This document shows positions 1 through 6,406 of a DNA stretch of 37,997 bases, piece after piece. Below the pieces are notes generated by a model that was given only the letters and a program-made list of their open reading frames with translations, was not told the origin of the DNA and ran no database searches. Location: positions 1-37,997 of IMG/VR virus record IMGVR_UViG_3300042453_003353; one strand, given 5' to 3'. The stretch comes from a virus. How positions within the stretch are numbered: the first letter of the stretch is position 1; each line of letters starts with the position of its first letter. The position numbers and the translations under genes were made by a program.

Positions 1-2062
1 TGACGATCGCATCCCACTTTGCCTTGTCCGCGCCCCGAGGCGGCGTGTTGCGCCAGTCCTTGCCGGCCGCCGCCAGCCGAGCCCGCAGGGCGCTTGCGCT
101 CACCCCCAGCAACTGGGCAATGCGCGGAGCCAGCGCCAGGGCAAGCTCGGGCGCCACCGGCTCCACCGCATCGCGCCCAGGACGGGCGATCTCGCGCTGG
201 GAGGCAGCTACCCCTTCCATCACCCTCGACGGGTCGCTGTAGGGGCTTGCAGGGGCCTCGCTGGGCCCTTGTGGTCCACGCGCCCTCATGTCTTGCGCCG
301 ACGGCGTCTCGCCGCGGCGCGTCAGGCCACGGTCGGCATTCCGCAGGTCGCGCAGCGTCTTGTCCGCGCCGAACTGCCGGCGAAAGTCGGCGAGCTCTTC
401 AGCGCTCACCATCGCCCGACCGTTGATCACCGGACGATTCGGCATCGGGCCGTCCCATGCCTTGCGAGCCCTTGGGGCAAGACCGCGATCCAGCGCCGCA
501 AGACTGCGGTTGCGGGCCTGGAGCGTCAACTCCCGCTCCGCATCTCCGCCGCCCGCCATCAGCACAGCACCGCCGGACTTCATCTTGGCTTCGGCCATCC
601 GCAGAGCGGCTTCCATCGCCTGCCCGCTGTCCATGCCGCCTTGGACCAGACCGCTCTTGATGCGGTCCACAACCTGCGAGTAGCTCATGTCTGATCCTTC
701 CACAGCCCCACCTTGGGCCTTCTTGACCGCATTCTCTGCCTTCACGCCGTCGCGCTCCAAGATGCGCAGATTCTGCTCCTCGCCCGGGAACACGACGTAG
801 TTGCGCGTACCTTCGCCACGATCGCGAGAAAATTCATCGAAGTACCTGACTCCCGGCACGCCTTGACTTTGCAAAAGCACCGACGCCTCCTTCTGGCCTC
901 CAGACTGCTCTGCAAGATACTGGTAGATGCTCTCGCCCGAGTAGCTGTCCGGGTCGGCCATGTAGTAGTCGAACCCGCCGCCTTCTCCAAACTTCGCTCG
1001 ATCCTTCGCGGCAAGATTTTGCAATGCCTTCTGCACCAGTTCGGGCTGCTCACTGATGGCCGCGTCCCAATCCAACATTCGATTGACAACTGTGTCCGGA
1101 AGGTCAATAGAATAAAACGAACCAGTTTTTTCTAGTGGCTCTTTGTATTTGCCGCTCTCAAGAAATGAAAGAGTATCCTGCAGCAGTTTCTTTTGCGGGT
1201 GATCGTCATTCGTCTCTAGCACGAAACGAATATCATCGGCCGCATAATTTGCTCCGCCCTGTAGTTCAGCCAACCTTTTTGCGTTTGCGTGAGCATTCAA
1301 CCTGCCCTGATTGGAAGCATCTCGATTTGCGAGTTGCTCAGCATATCTCTTGCCGACGGCCGGGTTCTCTGCGACATAAATGCCATGTCCGTACATTTGG
1401 TTGCCCTCGCCGCTGCCGATCTTCTCGGCGCGGAACCGCCCCAGCGGCAGCCCAGGCTCAGGAGCAAAGGTGTGCGGCGTGCCGTGGTAGGTCGTGATCT
1501 CCGGCGTCATGCCAGACCGGCGCATGTAGCTCTCGGCGAGCTCGGCCACCTTCGGTCCCAGGTTCTCGACCGCGGCCGCACCTGCACGCCGCGCACCCCG
1601 GCCAGCCGCCCGGGCGCCGGCCGCCGCCGCACGCGCAGCAGGCTTGGCAGCCGCCGCAATCCCTAGGGCATTCAGCGGATCCAAGGCAATCTCGGCCGCA
1701 GTCGCCGCCAGCGGCGAACCCGTCGCCCGCAGCGTCAAATCACCGACAGCCTGGGCTGGCGCCCCCAGCGGAGCAAGGCCCTGCGCAAGGCCCATGGTGG
1801 CCCGTACGCCGCCTTCCGTCGTGGGCATGGGGGTGAAGACGTCTTGCACCCTCTCGACCGTCTCAGCGGCCCCTGCAGGCCCGCGGAAGGGCAGCATGGC
1901 AAGCCCCGCCAGCCCGGCAGGCACGCTGCCCGCCAGGGCGCCGCCGATCGTCTCCAGAGCCTCCCCGCCACCGCGCTGATCAGGCCGGCGGCGCCCGGCG
2001 CTGGACATCCGAAACGACGGACGCGCCGCTCGCTGCAGTTCTTCCAGGGTCGGCTCGTCCAT
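1..2062 (-). CDS. Polyvalent phage protein with ADP-ribosyltransferase-like domain (3' end outside window)
   Basis: This minus-strand frame is open from an ATG at 2062 to the left edge, 687 codons without a stop, so the C-terminus is missing. A Shine-Dalgarno-like GAAGGAC lies just upstream of the ATG. Residues 1-180 are Ala/Gly-rich with helical character. Residues about 190-440 look like the ADP-ribosyltransferase domain found in phage polyvalent proteins: YHGTPHTF (H193), then GSGEGNQMYGHGIYVAEN around 216-233, then a tail with QGVPGVRYFD and NYVVF. In such enzymes the YHGT His and the GIY Tyr are NAD-binding positions; I could not assign the third catalytic residue. The remainder (441-687) is charged and unrecognised. 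The stretch coding residues 245-330 looks AT-richer than its surroundings. Such proteins are thought to be packaged and injected; that role here is inferred. It follows a 57-aa gene and the large terminase. Confidence 0.85.
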   Translation of the reverse strand, partial: MDEPTLEELQRAARPSFRMSSAGRRRPDQRGGGEALETIGGALAGSVPAGLAGLAMLPFRGPAGAAETVERVQDVFTPMPTTEGGVRATMGLAQGLAPLGAPAQAVGDLTLRATGSPLAATAAEIALDPLNALGIAAAAKPAARAAAAGARAAGRGARRAGAAAVENLGPKVAELAESYMRRSGMTPEITTYHGTPHTFAPEPGLPLGRFRAEKIGSGEGNQMYGHGIYVAENPAVGKRYAEQLANRDASNQGRLNAHANAKRLAELQGGANYAADDIRFVLETNDDHPQKKLLQDTLSFLESGKYKEPLEKTGSFYSIDLPDTVVNRMLDWDAAISEQPELVQKALQNLAAKDRAKFGEGGGFDYYMADPDSYSGESIYQYLAEQSGGQKEASVLLQSQGVPGVRYFDEFSRDRGEGTRNYVVFPGEEQNLRILERDGVKAENAVKKAQGGAVEGSDMSYSQVVDRIKSGLVQGGMDSGQAMEAALRMAEAKMKSGGAVLMAGGGDAERELTLQARNRSLAALDRGLAPRARKAWDGPMPNRPVINGRAMVSAEELADFRRQFGADKTLRDLRNADRGLTRRGETPSAQDMRARGPQGPSEAPASPYSDPSRVMEGVAASQREIARPGRDAVEPVAPELALALAPRIAQLLGVSASALRARLAAAGKDWRNTPPRGADKAKWDAIV

Positions 2063-2071
2063 GCGTGTCCT

Positions 2072-2245
2072 TCAGTGCGGCTCGTGGTGAACCCACACCT
2101 CATTGCCGGTCTCGGGGTCCACGTACTCCAGGCGCGGCATGCACCAGCACAACGGGCTCGGGAGATGTTCGAACACCTCCTGATCACGGTCCAGCATCAC
2201 ATGCTTCTCGTAGACCGAAAACACCTGCGTGCCATCACGCCGCAT
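2072..2245 (-). CDS. Hypothetical protein, 57 aa, coupled to terminase
   Basis: The start chosen is the ATG at 2245, which overlaps the last codons of the large terminase (stop at 2235) and is preceded by GGGAGAA, a good Shine-Dalgarno sequence. A longer open frame exists upstream but lies inside the terminase and is probably not used. The 57-residue product begins MRRDGTQVFSVYEKHV, has a Cys pair (CWC) in the middle, and ends in a His/Glu-rich tail. No family was recognised. The tight coupling between terminase and the polyvalent protein suggests late, packaging-linked expression. Confidence 0.65.
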   Translation of the reverse strand: MRRDGTQVFSVYEKHVMLDRDQEVFEHLPSPLCWCMPRLEYVDPETGNEVWVHHEPH

Positions 2246-5200
2246 ACGGATTCTCCCGCTTCGGGCGACCAGTGTCTGCGAAGTCGTCTTCGTCCCAATC
2301 ATCCCGAGGCGGTGGGTCAACCTCCAACCAGCCGGAATCGCGCAGGAATCGAAGGGCCTGCGTCACAGTATCCACCAGATCATCATGCGTGGTCTGCGGG
2401 AATGCGCAGACTTGCGACACCAGGGGTTCAGCCCAGTCCCTCACATACCCGCGGCGCTGCGTCGACTCGGGAATCCACACCCGCCCCCGGGCGATGATGT
2501 GCGAGACGATGTTCAGCCTCTGCACCTTGTCTGCCCTGCCGGGGTTGTACGCCCGCACCGGCAGATGCGCCCGCTGCAAGTCTTGAATCAGGGAGATGCC
2601 AGCCGACTTGTCCTCAATTAGGATCAGGTCCACCCGCTTCCTCTCGCGCCCGTCAGCCCCCGACTCAAAGACCGTCTCATACTCGTCGATCACCTTCGGC
2701 CGCAGGTCGGGATACTGCAGCCGGTCTTGCCAGCAGTCGATCAGCATCACCGACATCGGCCCGTCCTCGGGCTTGAACACGCCCCAGGTGCTCGAAGCAG
2801 TCGGGTCGTTCTGCGTCTTCTCCGACGTCGCGCAGTCGTAGCTCTGCACCACGTATTCGAACTTCGGGAACGGCTTGTCAGCAGGCCACAGACGGAAACT
2901 CGCCCGCTTGACGATGCCGCCCTCCTCGGGGTCAATGATCTCGGCGTGGATCTCCTGCCGGCCGAGCGTCGTGCCCTCGTACTGCAGGATCTGCTTCTTG
3001 AAGTTCGCCGAGAGGTTGCCGAGGTTCGCGTACGTCGACGCCCTGGTCACGACGACATCGTCGCCCTCCCGGCCCAGCAGTTCGATCACCAGATCCTTCG
3101 GCTTCGGCGTCGTGGTGATCACCATCCGCGTCCGCGCACCCAGGCGCACGCCGAACTGGATCTGGTCCCAGGTTTCCTGAAGGTAGTCCCAGGCGGCCAG
3201 CTCGTCGCAGTTGTGGACGACGATGCCGTTGGCGATGAACTCGTGCTCGCCCTCAACAGTCAGGTTGTACGTCGGGGCGTTGGGCAAGCGTTCGACGCGG
3301 CGTACCACCAGTCGGCTGACTGCGGTAGGTTCGCACCTTGGATCGGTTGTTGCACGCCCGGCAGCAGTACCGCTGGAACCGCTTGGTGGCGATGTACGCG
3401 CCCCGGCAGACCTCACAGGCTCGCTGCTCGGGCTGGAACACGTTGCGACGCCACCGCTCCGTGCAATCGCGAGAACAGAAGGAACCAGCCCGCCCAACGG
3501 CCAGGGAGACAAACCCGGCGCCGCACTGAAGGCAGCGTCCATCCTTGGGAGTGCGCAGCTTGGCCAGAGTAGCCGCTGCAGCGGCCTTCTGAGCGTCCGT
3601 GGTCGGCTTGCCGGTCTGGTGCATCCGGTTGTGCTCAGCCCGAGGCATCGCCTCAAGGTTCGCAATGTCGTTGTTGCCAGGGTTGCCATCTCGGTGATGA
3701 ACCACCCAGCCAGCCGGAATCGGCCCGTGGTGCCGCTCGTAGATGACCCGGTGCGCGTACCTGCCGCCGATGTACTTGTAGCCCATACCGAGGAGCCTTC
3801 CTTGACGTCGCCAGCAGCCACCCACTGGTCGCCCACCAGTATGGGATGGTCCTCGGTCACAGTCAAGCTCGTCTCGCCACACTCCAGCCTCACCAAACCC
3901 GCTGGATTGCCCGACGGGCCGGCCGCCAGCACTCGCCTCGGGCCGTGCCGGGTCAGCACGACATCACCAGCCCGCAGTGTCTCGATCGGCCGCTCTCCGT
4001 CCGGAGCGGCGATCATGGTTCCCGGGATGCAGCACCAACCCCCATGGAACTGCGGCCCCCGGAAGCGCTCAGGCTCCGATGCCGGGATGCCGATCATCAT
4101 CGACCCGTTGGTCAGCGTGATCGTCGGCCTGGGCTGCTTCAGGTACTGCTTGATCAGCGGCGGCGGGATCACCGACAGCAGTCCCGATTCCCCCTCGAAG
4201 CACGTTCCCTGGACATCCGCGCTCGTCGGGGCGGCCACCAGCCACCGCGTGCTTGGCATCTCCCAGGCCCACCAGCCGATCTGCTCGGCAGCCGTGCGCG
4301 TGTTGTGCGTCGGAATCATGCTCCGCCCGGCCAGATACAGCCGCGACGGGCTGTCCACCGTCAGGCACCGCATCGGCTTGGGTTCGATCGGTTCCACGCT
4401 CACGATCATGCGGTGGCCGTGCTTGAACCCCTGCGCCTTCGGTGGGCCGAGCTTCTCCGCCTTGCGCGGCAGACTGAACGGGTTGAACCGCGCCCACCTC
4501 CACGTCACCCGGTACTTCGGCCCGAAGTCCTGGCCGTTCAGCGTCGCCCGGCCCTCGTTCAGCGCAGCCTTCTCGCCCAGGCTCACCACCAACTCGTGGA
4601 CGTCCTGCGCCAGCACCTTGTCGACCGAGCAGAACTCGACGATCTTTGAATCGGCGTACCCATCCGAGTCGCACAAGCCACGCAGCAGCGCCAGCCGCTG
4701 AGCCACCGACGCCCGCATGTACACCGCAGGGATGTGCTTGTTGCCCAGCAAGCCCGCCGCCTTCAGTTGACGGCGCAGTCCCGGGACTCGCACGCTTGAC
4801 CTGCCGTGCTCAGCTTCCCTGGTGATGGTGCATTCGCGCCCCAGCATGTTCAGAACATGCGTATCGTCGAAGTTGCCCTTGTAGCTGCCGGCCGTCAGCC
4901 TCTGCCCTTTTGAGTCCCCATTGCCCAGCCAGTAGCCCAGCGTCCACGGGTCGATCGGCAAGTCCGCCTCGGGCAGGTTCAGCGGCTGCGTCGTCGGGAT
5001 GCAGTGGTTCAGGTCACCCCTGGCGCTGTACGTCAGCGTCTGCGCGATCCTGGCCGTCGTCAACGTCTCAGCGCCGCACAGTCCCACGATGTTGTGGTGG
5101 CTGTCCAGCAGCGGGTGACGGTAGGTCGCCCAGTCGTCCGGCACCCGGTCGATCCCGTGCCGCTGCATCTGCTTGCGCGTACGGTGCGTCATCGTCGTCC

Positions 5201-5588
5201 ACAGGTGCTCGCCGCCAGCGTCGATCGTCGACCCGTCGCTGAACGTCACCCGATACGCTGTCTCGGGCACCGTGATCGGGTGCGCCTCGACCACGCGGCA
5301 TGGGTTGCCGCGCTCGTCGAACACGACATCTCCGTCTCGGATGTCGCCATTGCGCACCCAGCCAGACGGCGTCGGGATCGGGGTGTCGACGCAGGCCAGC
5401 TTCCCCGCTCCCCGGCCGGCCAGCATCAGCCAGATCGACCACCAGTCCCCAGGCGGCAGCACCTGATGCGCGTGCGCCGTCTGCAGCCACCGCGCTCGCC
5501 AGAGATACGCCAGCCGCTTCTCAGCCGGCAGAGCCTGCAGCGCCCCTTGAGCATCAGGCTGCGCCAGCAACTCGGCGATGTCAGCCAC
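2235..5588 (-). CDS. terL: Terminase large subunit containing two inteins
   Basis: This is the DNA-packaging motor ATPase/nuclease. The 1117-residue precursor starts at GTG (5588), overlapping the upstream stop. The extein parts total about 476 residues, normal for the family. Residues 1-63 end in the Walker A motif GRGAGK, which is interrupted before its Thr by intein 1 (64-429). Residues 430-518 continue TRTAAEQIG and run to HGGW. Intein 2 then interrupts the Walker B motif, which resumes as CDELAAWDYL at 794. After that come the coupling motif ITTTPKP (about 824-830) and an RNase H-like nuclease domain with acidic residues in QSYDCATSE, LIEDKSAG and THDDLVD. Splicing of both inteins should be needed for activity, because each destroys an ATPase motif. 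The 3' end overlaps the next ORF by a few bases. Assignment as TerL rests on the motif order and is firm. Confidence 0.95.
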   Translation of the reverse strand: MADIAELLAQPDAQGALQALPAEKRLAYLWRARWLQTAHAHQVLPPGDWWSIWLMLAGRGAGKLACVDTPIPTPSGWVRNGDIRDGDVVFDERGNPCRVVEAHPITVPETAYRVTFSDGSTIDAGGEHLWTTMTHRTRKQMQRHGIDRVPDDWATYRHPLLDSHHNIVGLCGAETLTTARIAQTLTYSARGDLNHCIPTTQPLNLPEADLPIDPWTLGYWLGNGDSKGQRLTAGSYKGNFDDTHVLNMLGRECTITREAEHGRSSVRVPGLRRQLKAAGLLGNKHIPAVYMRASVAQRLALLRGLCDSDGYADSKIVEFCSVDKVLAQDVHELVVSLGEKAALNEGRATLNGQDFGPKYRVTWRWARFNPFSLPRKAEKLGPPKAQGFKHGHRMIVSVEPIEPKPMRCLTVDSPSRLYLAGRSMIPTHNTRTAAEQIGWWAWEMPSTRWLVAAPTSADVQGTCFEGESGLLSVIPPPLIKQYLKQPRPTITLTNGSMMIGIPASEPERFRGPQFHGGWCCIPGTMIAAPDGERPIETLRAGDVVLTRHGPRRVLAAGPSGNPAGLVRLECGETSLTVTEDHPILVGDQWVAAGDVKEGSSVWATSTSAAGTRTGSSTSGTTGRFRLAGWFITEMATLATTTLRTLRRCLGLSTTGCTRPASRPRTLRRPLQRLLWPSCALPRMDAAFSAAPGLSPWPLGGLVPSVLAIARSGGVATCSSPSSEPVRSAGARTSPPSGSSGTAAGRATTDPRCEPTAVSRLVVRRVERLPNAPTYNLTVEGEHEFIANGIVVHNCDELAAWDYLQETWDQIQFGVRLGARTRMVITTTPKPKDLVIELLGREGDDVVVTRASTYANLGNLSANFKKQILQYEGTTLGRQEIHAEIIDPEEGGIVKRASFRLWPADKPFPKFEYVVQSYDCATSEKTQNDPTASSTWGVFKPEDGPMSVMLIDCWQDRLQYPDLRPKVIDEYETVFESGADGRERKRVDLILIEDKSAGISLIQDLQRAHLPVRAYNPGRADKVQRLNIVSHIIARGRVWIPESTQRRGYVRDWAEPLVSQVCAFPQTTHDDLVDTVTQALRFLRDSGWLEVDPPPRDDWDEDDFADTGRPKRENPYAA
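3210..4034 (-). mobile_element. Intein 2 in TerL Walker B, with endonuclease region overprinted
   Basis: TerL residues 519/520-793 sit between HGGW and CDELAAW. Block A reads CIPGTMIAAPDG; either of two adjacent Cys (519 or 520) could be the first residue, and starting at 519 restores GGWCDELAAW. Block B is TVTEDHPIL (His near 581). The C-terminal blocks are PTYNLTVEGEHEF then ANGIVVHN, followed by Cys794, so this is a normal class 1 arrangement. Between about residues 601 and 757 this frame reads low-complexity Ser/Thr/Arg/Pro sequence that looks like an antisense or shifted frame. The real information there is an HNH nuclease in another frame (3253-3786). The frame nevertheless stays open all the way through. 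Confidence 0.88.
3253..3786 (-). CDS. HNH homing endonuclease nested out of frame inside intein 2
   Basis: This 177-residue frame is shifted by one base relative to TerL and lies where an intein endonuclease domain normally sits. The ATG at 3786 is preceded, 9 bases upstream, by a strong Shine-Dalgarno sequence AAGGAAGG. The protein starts MGYKYIGGRYAHRVIYERHH and contains an HNH_3-type core, WVVHHRDGNPGNNDIANLE (27-45) and AEHNRMH (50-56), with His30/31 and His52/56 as metal or catalytic candidates. It is followed by two Cys-rich knuckles, CLQC...FCSRDC and CEVC...YCCRAC, that resemble zinc ribbons. Its last codons overlap the C-terminal splicing block of the intein in a different frame. It could be translated separately, or could mark two compensating frameshifts in a once in-frame domain. 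The family call is firm; the expression mode is inferred. Confidence 0.85.
   Translation of the reverse strand: MGYKYIGGRYAHRVIYERHHGPIPAGWVVHHRDGNPGNNDIANLEAMPRAEHNRMHQTGKPTTDAQKAAAAATLAKLRTPKDGRCLQCGAGFVSLAVGRAGSFCSRDCTERWRRNVFQPEQRACEVCRGAYIATKRFQRYCCRACNNRSKVRTYRSQPTGGTPRRTLAQRPDVQPDC
4302..5399 (-). mobile_element. Intein 1 in TerL Walker A, class 3 type with LAGLIDADG endonuclease
   Basis: TerL residues 64-429 (366 aa) sit between GRGAGK and T, exactly inside the P-loop. Splicing block A reads LACVDTPIPTPSGW. The block does not place Cys or Ser at position 1 if Walker A is to be rejoined correctly. Block B ends GGEHLW with Trp130, block F has Cys408 (MRCLTVDSP), and block G is IPTHN with Thr427, His428 and Asn429. 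This Trp/Cys/Thr set is the signature of class 3 inteins, which use the internal Cys instead of an N-terminal nucleophile. Two LAGLIDADG motifs, LGYWLGNGD (about 217-225) and LLRGLCDSDG (301-310), indicate an in-frame homing endonuclease. Using Cys66 as a class 1 start is possible but would leave two extra residues in the P-loop. Confidence 0.9.
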
Positions 5589-5814
5589 CGAGCACCACGA
5601 TCTTCTGCCCAGGCATCAGCCAGGAGCCCGCCGAAGCCCACTGCCGGGCTCCGTTGCTACCAGAGTACTCCGCCAGCACATCAGCGCCTTGTAGAGCCTC
5701 CTGGGCCGCCTCCCGGGCTAGGAGGCGCAGCCTGTCCGGCAAATCACCGGAAAGCGCCCCGCGCATGTGCTTCGGCTCCCAGCCCATGATCTCGGCAATG
5801 CGCTCGTCAGTCAT
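5581..5814 (-). CDS. Hypothetical protein, 77 aa, between HNH gene and terL
   Basis: The ATG at 5814 overlaps the stop of the HNH gene as ATGA, and the 3' end overlaps the GTG start of terL, so the three genes are translationally coupled. The start MTDERIAEIMGWEPKHMRGAL looks like a short helix-turn-helix-type segment, followed by LPDRLRLLAREAAQEAL and a Gly-containing C-terminus MPGQKIVVLGG. No family was recognised. The position next to terL suggests a packaging accessory role, but nothing in the sequence proves that. Confidence 0.65.
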   Translation of the reverse strand: MTDERIAEIMGWEPKHMRGALSGDLPDRLRLLAREAAQEALQGADVLAEYSGSNGARQWASAGSWLMPGQKIVVLGG

Positions 5815-6323
5815 GCCACCCTCAGCAACTGATCCCAAGGGTTCGCGGCGATCTCGCGGTACGAGTCGCCGTTCCTGATGTTGCACACCGTGCTCTTCGA
5901 GCAGCCAAACTCCCGCGCCAGCGCCGCCGCGCTCCTCGGGTCCGTCCGCACCATCAGCACCTGCTCATCCGTCAGCGCCCGCTTGTGCGCGTTCACGCGC
6001 TGCAGCTTCACGATCCGCACCGGGTGCCGCATGTCGACGCACGAGGCAATGTACCGCGCATGCTGCTTGGATGTGCGCTCTAGGATGTGCGCCGGATTGA
6101 CGCACCGCGGGTTGCCGCACGACGCCGACAGGAAGCGCCCAGGCGCAGCAGGCGTGCCCTGCAACTCACGGATGAACCGCCGCACCGTCAGCAGCCGGTT
6201 GTGGACCTTGATCAGCGGCGTCCGGCCGTCCTGCATGAAGCCCTGCCACTCCAGGCAATCTCCGACCTCCACCGTGCGGGCCAGGACGCTCTCCAAGGTG
6301 TGGATCACCTTCGGTCGACCCAT
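5811..6323 (-). CDS. Free-standing HNH endonuclease with C-terminal HTH
   Basis: This is a 170-residue phage-type HNH nuclease. Residues 1-60 resemble the N-terminal part of phage homing HNH proteins (GDCLEWQGFMQDGRTPLIKV). The diagnostic CGNPRCVNPAHI spans 69-80. The C-terminal third (about 115-160) reads as a DNA-binding helix-turn-helix, TDEQVLMVRTDPRSAAALAR then FGCSKSTVCNIRNG. Such proteins cut DNA at intron-less or intein-less alleles, and HNH proteins next to terminases can also help cos cleavage; either role is possible here. The start at 6323 overlaps the stop of a 27-codon upstream ORF (TGATG). Confidence 0.9.
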   Translation of the reverse strand: MGRPKVIHTLESVLARTVEVGDCLEWQGFMQDGRTPLIKVHNRLLTVRRFIRELQGTPAAPGRFLSASCGNPRCVNPAHILERTSKQHARYIASCVDMRHPVRIVKLQRVNAHKRALTDEQVLMVRTDPRSAAALAREFGCSKSTVCNIRNGDSYREIAANPWDQLLRVA

Positions 6324-6406
6324 CAGTACCCCCCCAGCGGACCGAACAGGCCGAACAGCAACGCACCCGCCACCAGGGACCAGAAGATCAGTTCAAACAC
6401 CCGCAT
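6323..6406 (-). CDS. Putative 27-aa single-span membrane micropeptide
   Basis: A short ORF starts at ATG 6406 and ends with a TGA that overlaps the start of the HNH gene. The product is almost entirely one hydrophobic segment (FELIFWSLVAGALLFGLFG) ending in GGY. A weak GAGGTG lies about 16 bases upstream. The coupling and hydrophobic pattern favour a real gene, but it is short, its Shine-Dalgarno sequence is poor and no homolog is recognised. Confidence 0.4.
   Translation of the reverse strand: MRVFELIFWSLVAGALLFGLFGPLGGY

Follow-up and report, generated by a model that had tools for sequence, protein, structure and literature searches.

Intein homing endonucleases are generally treated as domains nested in frame within their inteins. 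The terminase large subunit gene (terL) studied here carries an intein whose splicing blocks and HNH endonuclease are read in different frames, which raises the questions of whether this offset is genuine, how two proteins could be made from the same DNA, and where such an arrangement came from.

Architecture of the terL locus

The window, meaning the whole stretch of DNA that was analysed, comprises the 37,997 bases of a single metagenomic IMG/VR virus record. On its minus strand, the terL ORF of 1117 aa (2235–5588), identified by Pfam Terminase_6N/Terminase_6C and by the PHROG terminase large subunit family, contains two inteins and is open along its whole length, intein 2 included. Intein 1 (4302–5399, minus strand, 366 aa) interrupts Walker A between GRGAGK and T, a motif that is intein-less in a related locus (L008), and has the ordinary intein architecture, with an in-frame LAGLIDADG domain (Pfam LAGLIDADG_3). 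It starts with L-A-C instead of Cys and carries W in EHLWTT, C in RCLTV and T in IPTHN; from these residues it looks like a class 3 (WCT) intein, in which case two differently built inteins would lie in one terL. Between terS and terL, a 170-aa ORF (6323–5811, minus strand) has an HNH-like look (CGNPRCVNPAHIL) and is without a Pfam match.

Intein 2 (3210–4034, minus strand, 275 aa) interrupts Walker B directly after the W of GGWCDELAAW and is recognized by Hint_2 and TIGR01443. The original prediction had located this intein correctly except for its start, which we place one codon upstream, at 4034. Intein-less alleles carry only one Cys codon there, so that the first of the two present in the window belongs to the intein. 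Its N-terminal splicing half (approximately 3783–4034, minus strand), with C1 and the TxxH block TEDHP, and its C-terminal splicing blocks (3210–3272, minus strand; TYNLTVEGEHEFIANGIVVHN; TIGR01443 1.8e-10), with the penultimate H and the terminal N followed by Cys at +1, are both read in the terL frame. AlphaFold predicts a Hint fold for residues 1–88 and 233–275 with a pLDDT of about 95, and the best solved matches, by fold and by sequence, are mini-inteins. The residues C1, T60, H63 and N275 are invariant among 27–30 aligned inteins. Intein 2 thus combines splicing blocks bearing the catalytic residues, a Hint fold and a precise insertion in a conserved motif for which intein-less alleles exist. 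Between the two halves, the endonuclease slot in the terL frame (3297–3779, minus strand; residues 89–232) contains no stops and is predicted to be disordered (pLDDT <50).

The nested HNH endonuclease gene encodes 177 aa at 3253–3786 (minus strand), from an ATG at 3786 to a stop at 3255–3253, exactly as predicted, and lies in the +2 (= −1) frame relative to terL (PF13392 HNH_3, 5e-20). Its end also overlaps the C-terminal splicing segment, as had been claimed: over 44 nt (3253–3296, minus strand) the same DNA codes for the HNH C-terminus and for the start of the intein C-terminal segment. The window protein carries H30, H31, D33, N38, N39, N43 and H52 together with Cys-rich zinc-finger-like motifs, and H30, H31, N39, N43 and H52 are invariant in the alignment. 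The AF2 model is fair (mean pLDDT 77.7). The intron-encoded endonuclease I-HmuI is the best solved (PDB) match by sequence and by fold, with modest significance (fold E = 0.02 only), and matches in the fold search were weak beyond it.

Conservation of the offset and proposed translation of the nested gene

In a first survey, viral contigs were scanned twice, using the HNH and the N half of the intein as queries. It returned about 50 loci related to the window's terL intein, and the same HNH offset, with the N and C blocks in the terL frame, was found wherever an HNH and splicing blocks of this type were readable. For a wider survey, a profile was built from diverse HNHs, viral contigs were scanned again together with GTDB genomes, and the loci were classed by profile HMMs for the N block, the C block and the HNH. 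This gave 129 nested loci after identical copies were dropped, 107 of them distinct at 80% DNA identity. The survey hits comprised 104 nested, 3 split and 24 free-standing loci, counts that do not estimate prevalence because the survey was conditioned on similarity to nested HNH seeds. Among the 107 distinct nested loci the offset was +2 in 106 and +1 in one, and the intein frame was stop-free in 104, the three with stops being L064, L066 and L150. Single-base indels putting the HNH in frame with the intein, or a loss of the ATG in all relatives, were not encountered among the relatives.

These loci come from phages, prophages, and bacterial and archaeal contigs, whose titles name Gemmatimonadales, Parabacteroides, Bacteroides, Frankia, Glycomyces, Simkania, Byssovorax, Opitutae, Nitrospiraceae and a Methanomethylophilaceae archaeon; host assignments are given as in the record title, since most such contigs are MAG contigs. 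The same arrangement lies under one terL CDS in the annotated genomes of Tetrasphaera phage TJE1, Acinetobacter phage Highwayman and Rhodobacteraceae phage LS06-2018-MD07. As far as these comparisons reach, the nested arrangement is not confined to one locus but belongs to a family that occurs widely and also has split, free-standing and HNH-less members.

The openness of the intein frame was assessed in 101 representatives by holding the HNH protein fixed and redrawing synonymous codons from local usage. Over 18,624 codons, 284.5 stops were expected in the intein frame and none was seen, whereas the unused frame held 1,307 stops against 1,279.5 expected; the joint figure of 10^-153 for the absent stops is not a probability, because the loci are related. 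Five AT-rich loci (L088, L204, L142, L098 and L087; 34–39% GC) were each expected to contain 5–8 stops, and for L088, L204, L142 and Highwayman (L060), at 34–40% GC, the probability of finding none was at most 0.005 each. Together, the synonymous shuffles and the AT-rich loci rule out an intein frame kept open by chance in GC-rich DNA. A TGA in the intein frame is forced wherever the residue after a Met is K, N, T, I or M. Such pairs were found at 0 of 163 Met residues in nested HNHs and at 16 of 44 in free-standing ones, a comparison that shows the cost of the overlap and is not an independent test, because nested loci are stop-free by definition. On these sequence comparisons, overlapping double coding is confirmed as real, widespread and kept by selection.

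How the HNH protein would be translated is constrained by its surroundings. Upstream of the HNH, a stop inside the intein closes the HNH frame in 99 of 103 loci, and the median distance from this stop to the profile start is 39 nt, so that either a local start or a frameshift is needed. A start codon near the end of the N block was present in 103 of the 104 loci examined, and it was ATG in 90 of 103, a number somewhat inflated because the choice of start favoured ATG. Across loci, the Shine-Dalgarno (SD) sequences upstream of the HNH starts were stronger than in synonymous shuffles (mean −6.1 versus −4.9 kcal/mol, P ~1e-7). The original prediction had also credited the window's HNH with its own SD. 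An SD-like AAGGAAGG does lie 9 nt before the ATG (3796–3803, minus strand) and recurs in L002–L008, but in the window it is no stronger than synonymous shuffles, and it also encodes intein residues. A promoter-like TTGACT-17-CATACT was noted at 3866–3838 (minus strand), about 50 nt upstream of the HNH ATG and inside conserved intein block B, with 0.1 expected in shuffles.

If −1 ribosomal frameshifting produced the HNH, the product would be an IntN-HNH fusion and internal initiation would play no part. This route would agree with an offset that nearly always corresponds to the −1 frame, and a slippery heptamer lies near the junction in 12 of 103 loci. However, a same-length extein control contained such heptamers in 6 of 99 cases, which amounts to no clear enrichment, and frameshifting would need neither the local ATG nor the stronger SDs. 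The phase bias also has another explanation, as free-standing HNH genes have stops in only 3.3% of their +2 shadow codons versus 11.9% of the +1 shadow codons. We consider frameshifting unlikely, and internal initiation would be the better reading for the HNH.

Evidence for mobility of the element and selection on its two frames

Alleles lacking exactly intein 2 at Walker B were found in five loci (L053–L057), with 95–96.5% DNA identity over 864 bp, and one further locus (L041) has a 130-residue mini-intein without an HNH at the same site. When the window was compared with L003, identity rose at the insertion site, from about 80% upstream of it to 93–99% across the intein and the following 1 kb or so. 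Alleles with the full intein, without it and without only the HNH correspond to the stages of a homing cycle, and together with this boundary they support homing. The co-location of the HNH with intein 2, together with this mobility pattern, suggests that the HNH is the homing enzyme of the intein. Within the C-terminal insertion site, to which a Mantel test was restricted since exteins are not comparable across mixed sites, HNH distances correlated with extein distances at 0.59 and with intein distances at 0.53; because they follow the extein as well as the intein, much of the HNH history may be vertical. In four terL genes (L008, L021, L026 and L045) two such units were present, one in Walker B and one in the C-terminal nuclease motif, and each intein there had its own nested out-of-frame HNH, of different subfamilies.

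HNH proteins have been reported to work with phage terminases, and a competing view would make the nested HNH a packaging helper nuclease residing at terL instead of a homing enzyme. The host genes, which are nearly all terL, speak in its favour: among 83 exteins scanned, 38 matched Terminase_6N and 36 Terminase_3, with one portal family protein and one DNA polymerase A exonuclease domain. The free-standing homologues do so as well, since most of them start either directly after an intein-less terL or before terS. Such a role is nevertheless quite improbable, because close relatives have a terL without intein and HNH, an HNH-less mini-intein exists, a DNA polymerase gene (L173) houses a different HNH in the same way, the best solved relative of the HNH is a homing endonuclease, and some terL genes carry two of these units.

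Selection on the two frames was estimated between the window and 23 relatives with Nei-Gojobori-type methods, applied frame by frame and not as a joint overlapping-gene model. The HNH-frame omega was 0.05–0.27 where computable and the intein-frame omega was 0.8–1.5, that is, about 1; changes fell mainly at HNH third positions. No protein-level constraint was seen in the intein frame of the slot (omega of about 1, pLDDT <50). Given these omega values and the concentration of changes at HNH third positions, the terL frame of the slot is kept open, but not visibly as protein.

The frame offset might instead have been a sequencing or assembly error, or the mark of a decayed in-frame HNH intein, and the window does come from one metagenomic record. 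The relatives with the same offset, 106 of 107 distinct loci in independent records, rule out an indel or assembly error, the HNH frame is under purifying selection, and two compensating indels would be required in every relative, so that we give error or decay next to no credence. An intron removed at the RNA level and open by chance deserves equally little, even though intron ORFs encode HNH enzymes such as I-HmuI, because the insertion has the conserved intein residues C1, TxxH and HN and a confident Hint fold, and because Rfam gave no match to a group I or II ribozyme core up to E = 1 in window positions 2000–6400.

We conclude that the element is very probably a mobile intein of phage terL that encodes its homing endonuclease in an overlapping gene instead of an intein domain, with a free HNH made from the internal ATG and with cutting and splicing as proposed below. 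The two frames, their conservation, the avoidance of stops, the intein-less alleles and the transfer boundary are documented directly in the sequences. In such an element, a ribosome reading straight through the terL frame would produce a precursor in which the Hint halves fold around a disordered loop, and the intein would then splice itself out to leave an intact TerL. Ribosomes starting at the internal ATG would instead make the free 177-aa HNH endonuclease with its zinc-finger-like tails, which would cut intein-less terL alleles near the Walker B codons, where repair would copy the intein in. Selection would preserve the HNH protein itself, while in the intein frame it would do no more than keep stops out. 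The original prediction, of one mobile unit in which a separate homing enzyme is nested out of frame, is supported and fits all of the comparative evidence; the HNH would then be expressed independently, as also foreseen, with cleavage and splicing as putative steps.

Probable origin, relation to known systems and implications

Most insertions in the family are found at the C-terminal nuclease motif, between DH and CxDAxRY, and the 17 Walker B units group in a single clade (100% support). In the HNH tree, nested and free forms interleave, with 12 changes between them, at least 3 of which are forced by well-supported branches; moves between the two states have therefore occurred, in one or both directions. 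One free-standing HNH (L081, 1260–1865), just after an intein-less terL, has a stop-free +2 shadow frame and falls among nested rows in the tree, as would be expected of an escape from an intein. Split forms, in which TerL-IntN, HNH and IntC-TerL are separate ORFs, were found in Vibrio phage 1.245.O (L064), L100 and L150, and a split form with a remnant HNH in Brochothrix phage BL3 (L066). The terL of Exiguobacterium phage vB_EauM-23 (L069, 1029–2246) stops at the usual intein site (..EDKNNHSMAA) and is followed by a free-standing HNH; its terL C-terminus seems to be missing or frameshifted.

The +1 offset occurs in a terL with the same HNH family (L145, 3917–4435) and, with another HNH, in a terL (L058, 2494–3387) and in the DNA polymerase A gene mentioned above (L173, 3701–4249); these three cases suggest independent captures. 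Inteins with in-frame HNHs are also present (L176 and L178). Since the +2 shadow frame of free-standing HNH genes has the fewest stops, an HNH captured out of frame would survive far more easily in +2, and the counts point to this low stop frequency as the source of the shared phase, with common descent for the rest. The most likely origin would be the capture of an HNH gene like those that stand free beside terminase genes, in the phase with the fewest shadow stops. The free-standing homologues next to terminase genes and the split versions suggest how the nested unit arises and decays.

Canonical mobile inteins with in-frame LAGLIDADG or HNH share with intein 2 the Hint domain, an endonuclease between the splicing halves, intein-less alleles and the mobility pattern. 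Their endonuclease, however, is a domain of the spliced-out intein, whereas the window HNH is a separate gene in another frame and is not continuous with the intein polypeptide, which at this point, given the +2 offset, reads a disordered stretch. Dassa et al. in 2009, a study cited in PMC3229294, reportedly described fractured genes in which split inteins have a free-standing endonuclease gene between their halves. Such genes resemble the present family in that separate endonuclease gene, and the family itself includes forms of this kind (L064, L066, L100 and L150), but the window and 104 representatives encode one intein polypeptide with the endonuclease overlapping it; the split relatives appear to link the nested and fractured-gene arrangements. 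The HNH enzymes of phage group I introns, I-HmuI among them, are likewise HNH domain proteins engaged in homing and encoded by an ORF apart from the splicing element's own product. The difference is that splicing here is predicted to be by protein, with no intron found, so that the frame through the HNH ORF must stay open.

When the literature was searched for inteins whose endonuclease is out of frame, the only close match was the 'ShiLan domain', which Arsenault et al. 2025 (PMC11855218) describe as an insertion into phage methylases that carries an HNH out of frame, has no intein motifs and does not splice. Its insert is thought to stay in the protein, and its HNH has a GTG start and no detectable RBS (PMC11855218). 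As in our family, the insertion is open in the host-gene frame, the HNH lies in another frame and the sporadic distribution suggests homing. ShiLan lacks intein splicing motifs and the intein fold, whereas the window HNH sits in the slot of a complete intein with its Hint domain, and for this reason how the host protein survives would pose no problem here. A 2025 preprint by Gosselin et al. on non-canonical actinophage inteins may, to judge from its title and a citing sentence (PMC11855218), treat overlapping frames, and may describe part of the nested-HNH intein finding.

For the family as a whole, we lean, with reservations, towards a large and old class of mobile inteins, mostly in phage terL and spread over many bacterial and some archaeal lineages, in which the homing-endonuclease gene overlaps the intein in a near-fixed phase set by the few +2 shadow stops. 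This class would serve as a reservoir for split inteins, arising when a stop appears in the overlap, and for escaping free-standing HNH genes.

In phages such as TJE1 and Highwayman, these findings reveal a second gene that the terL annotation conceals, and they add a large natural set of conserved overlapping genes. Natural disordered slots may be useful as insertion points in engineered inteins. The family also offers a concrete path by which a free-standing nuclease could become part of an intein and, later, of a split intein. In this selfish element, the splicing protein and the DNA cutter share DNA but not a reading frame, and they can therefore be expressed, lost and replaced independently.
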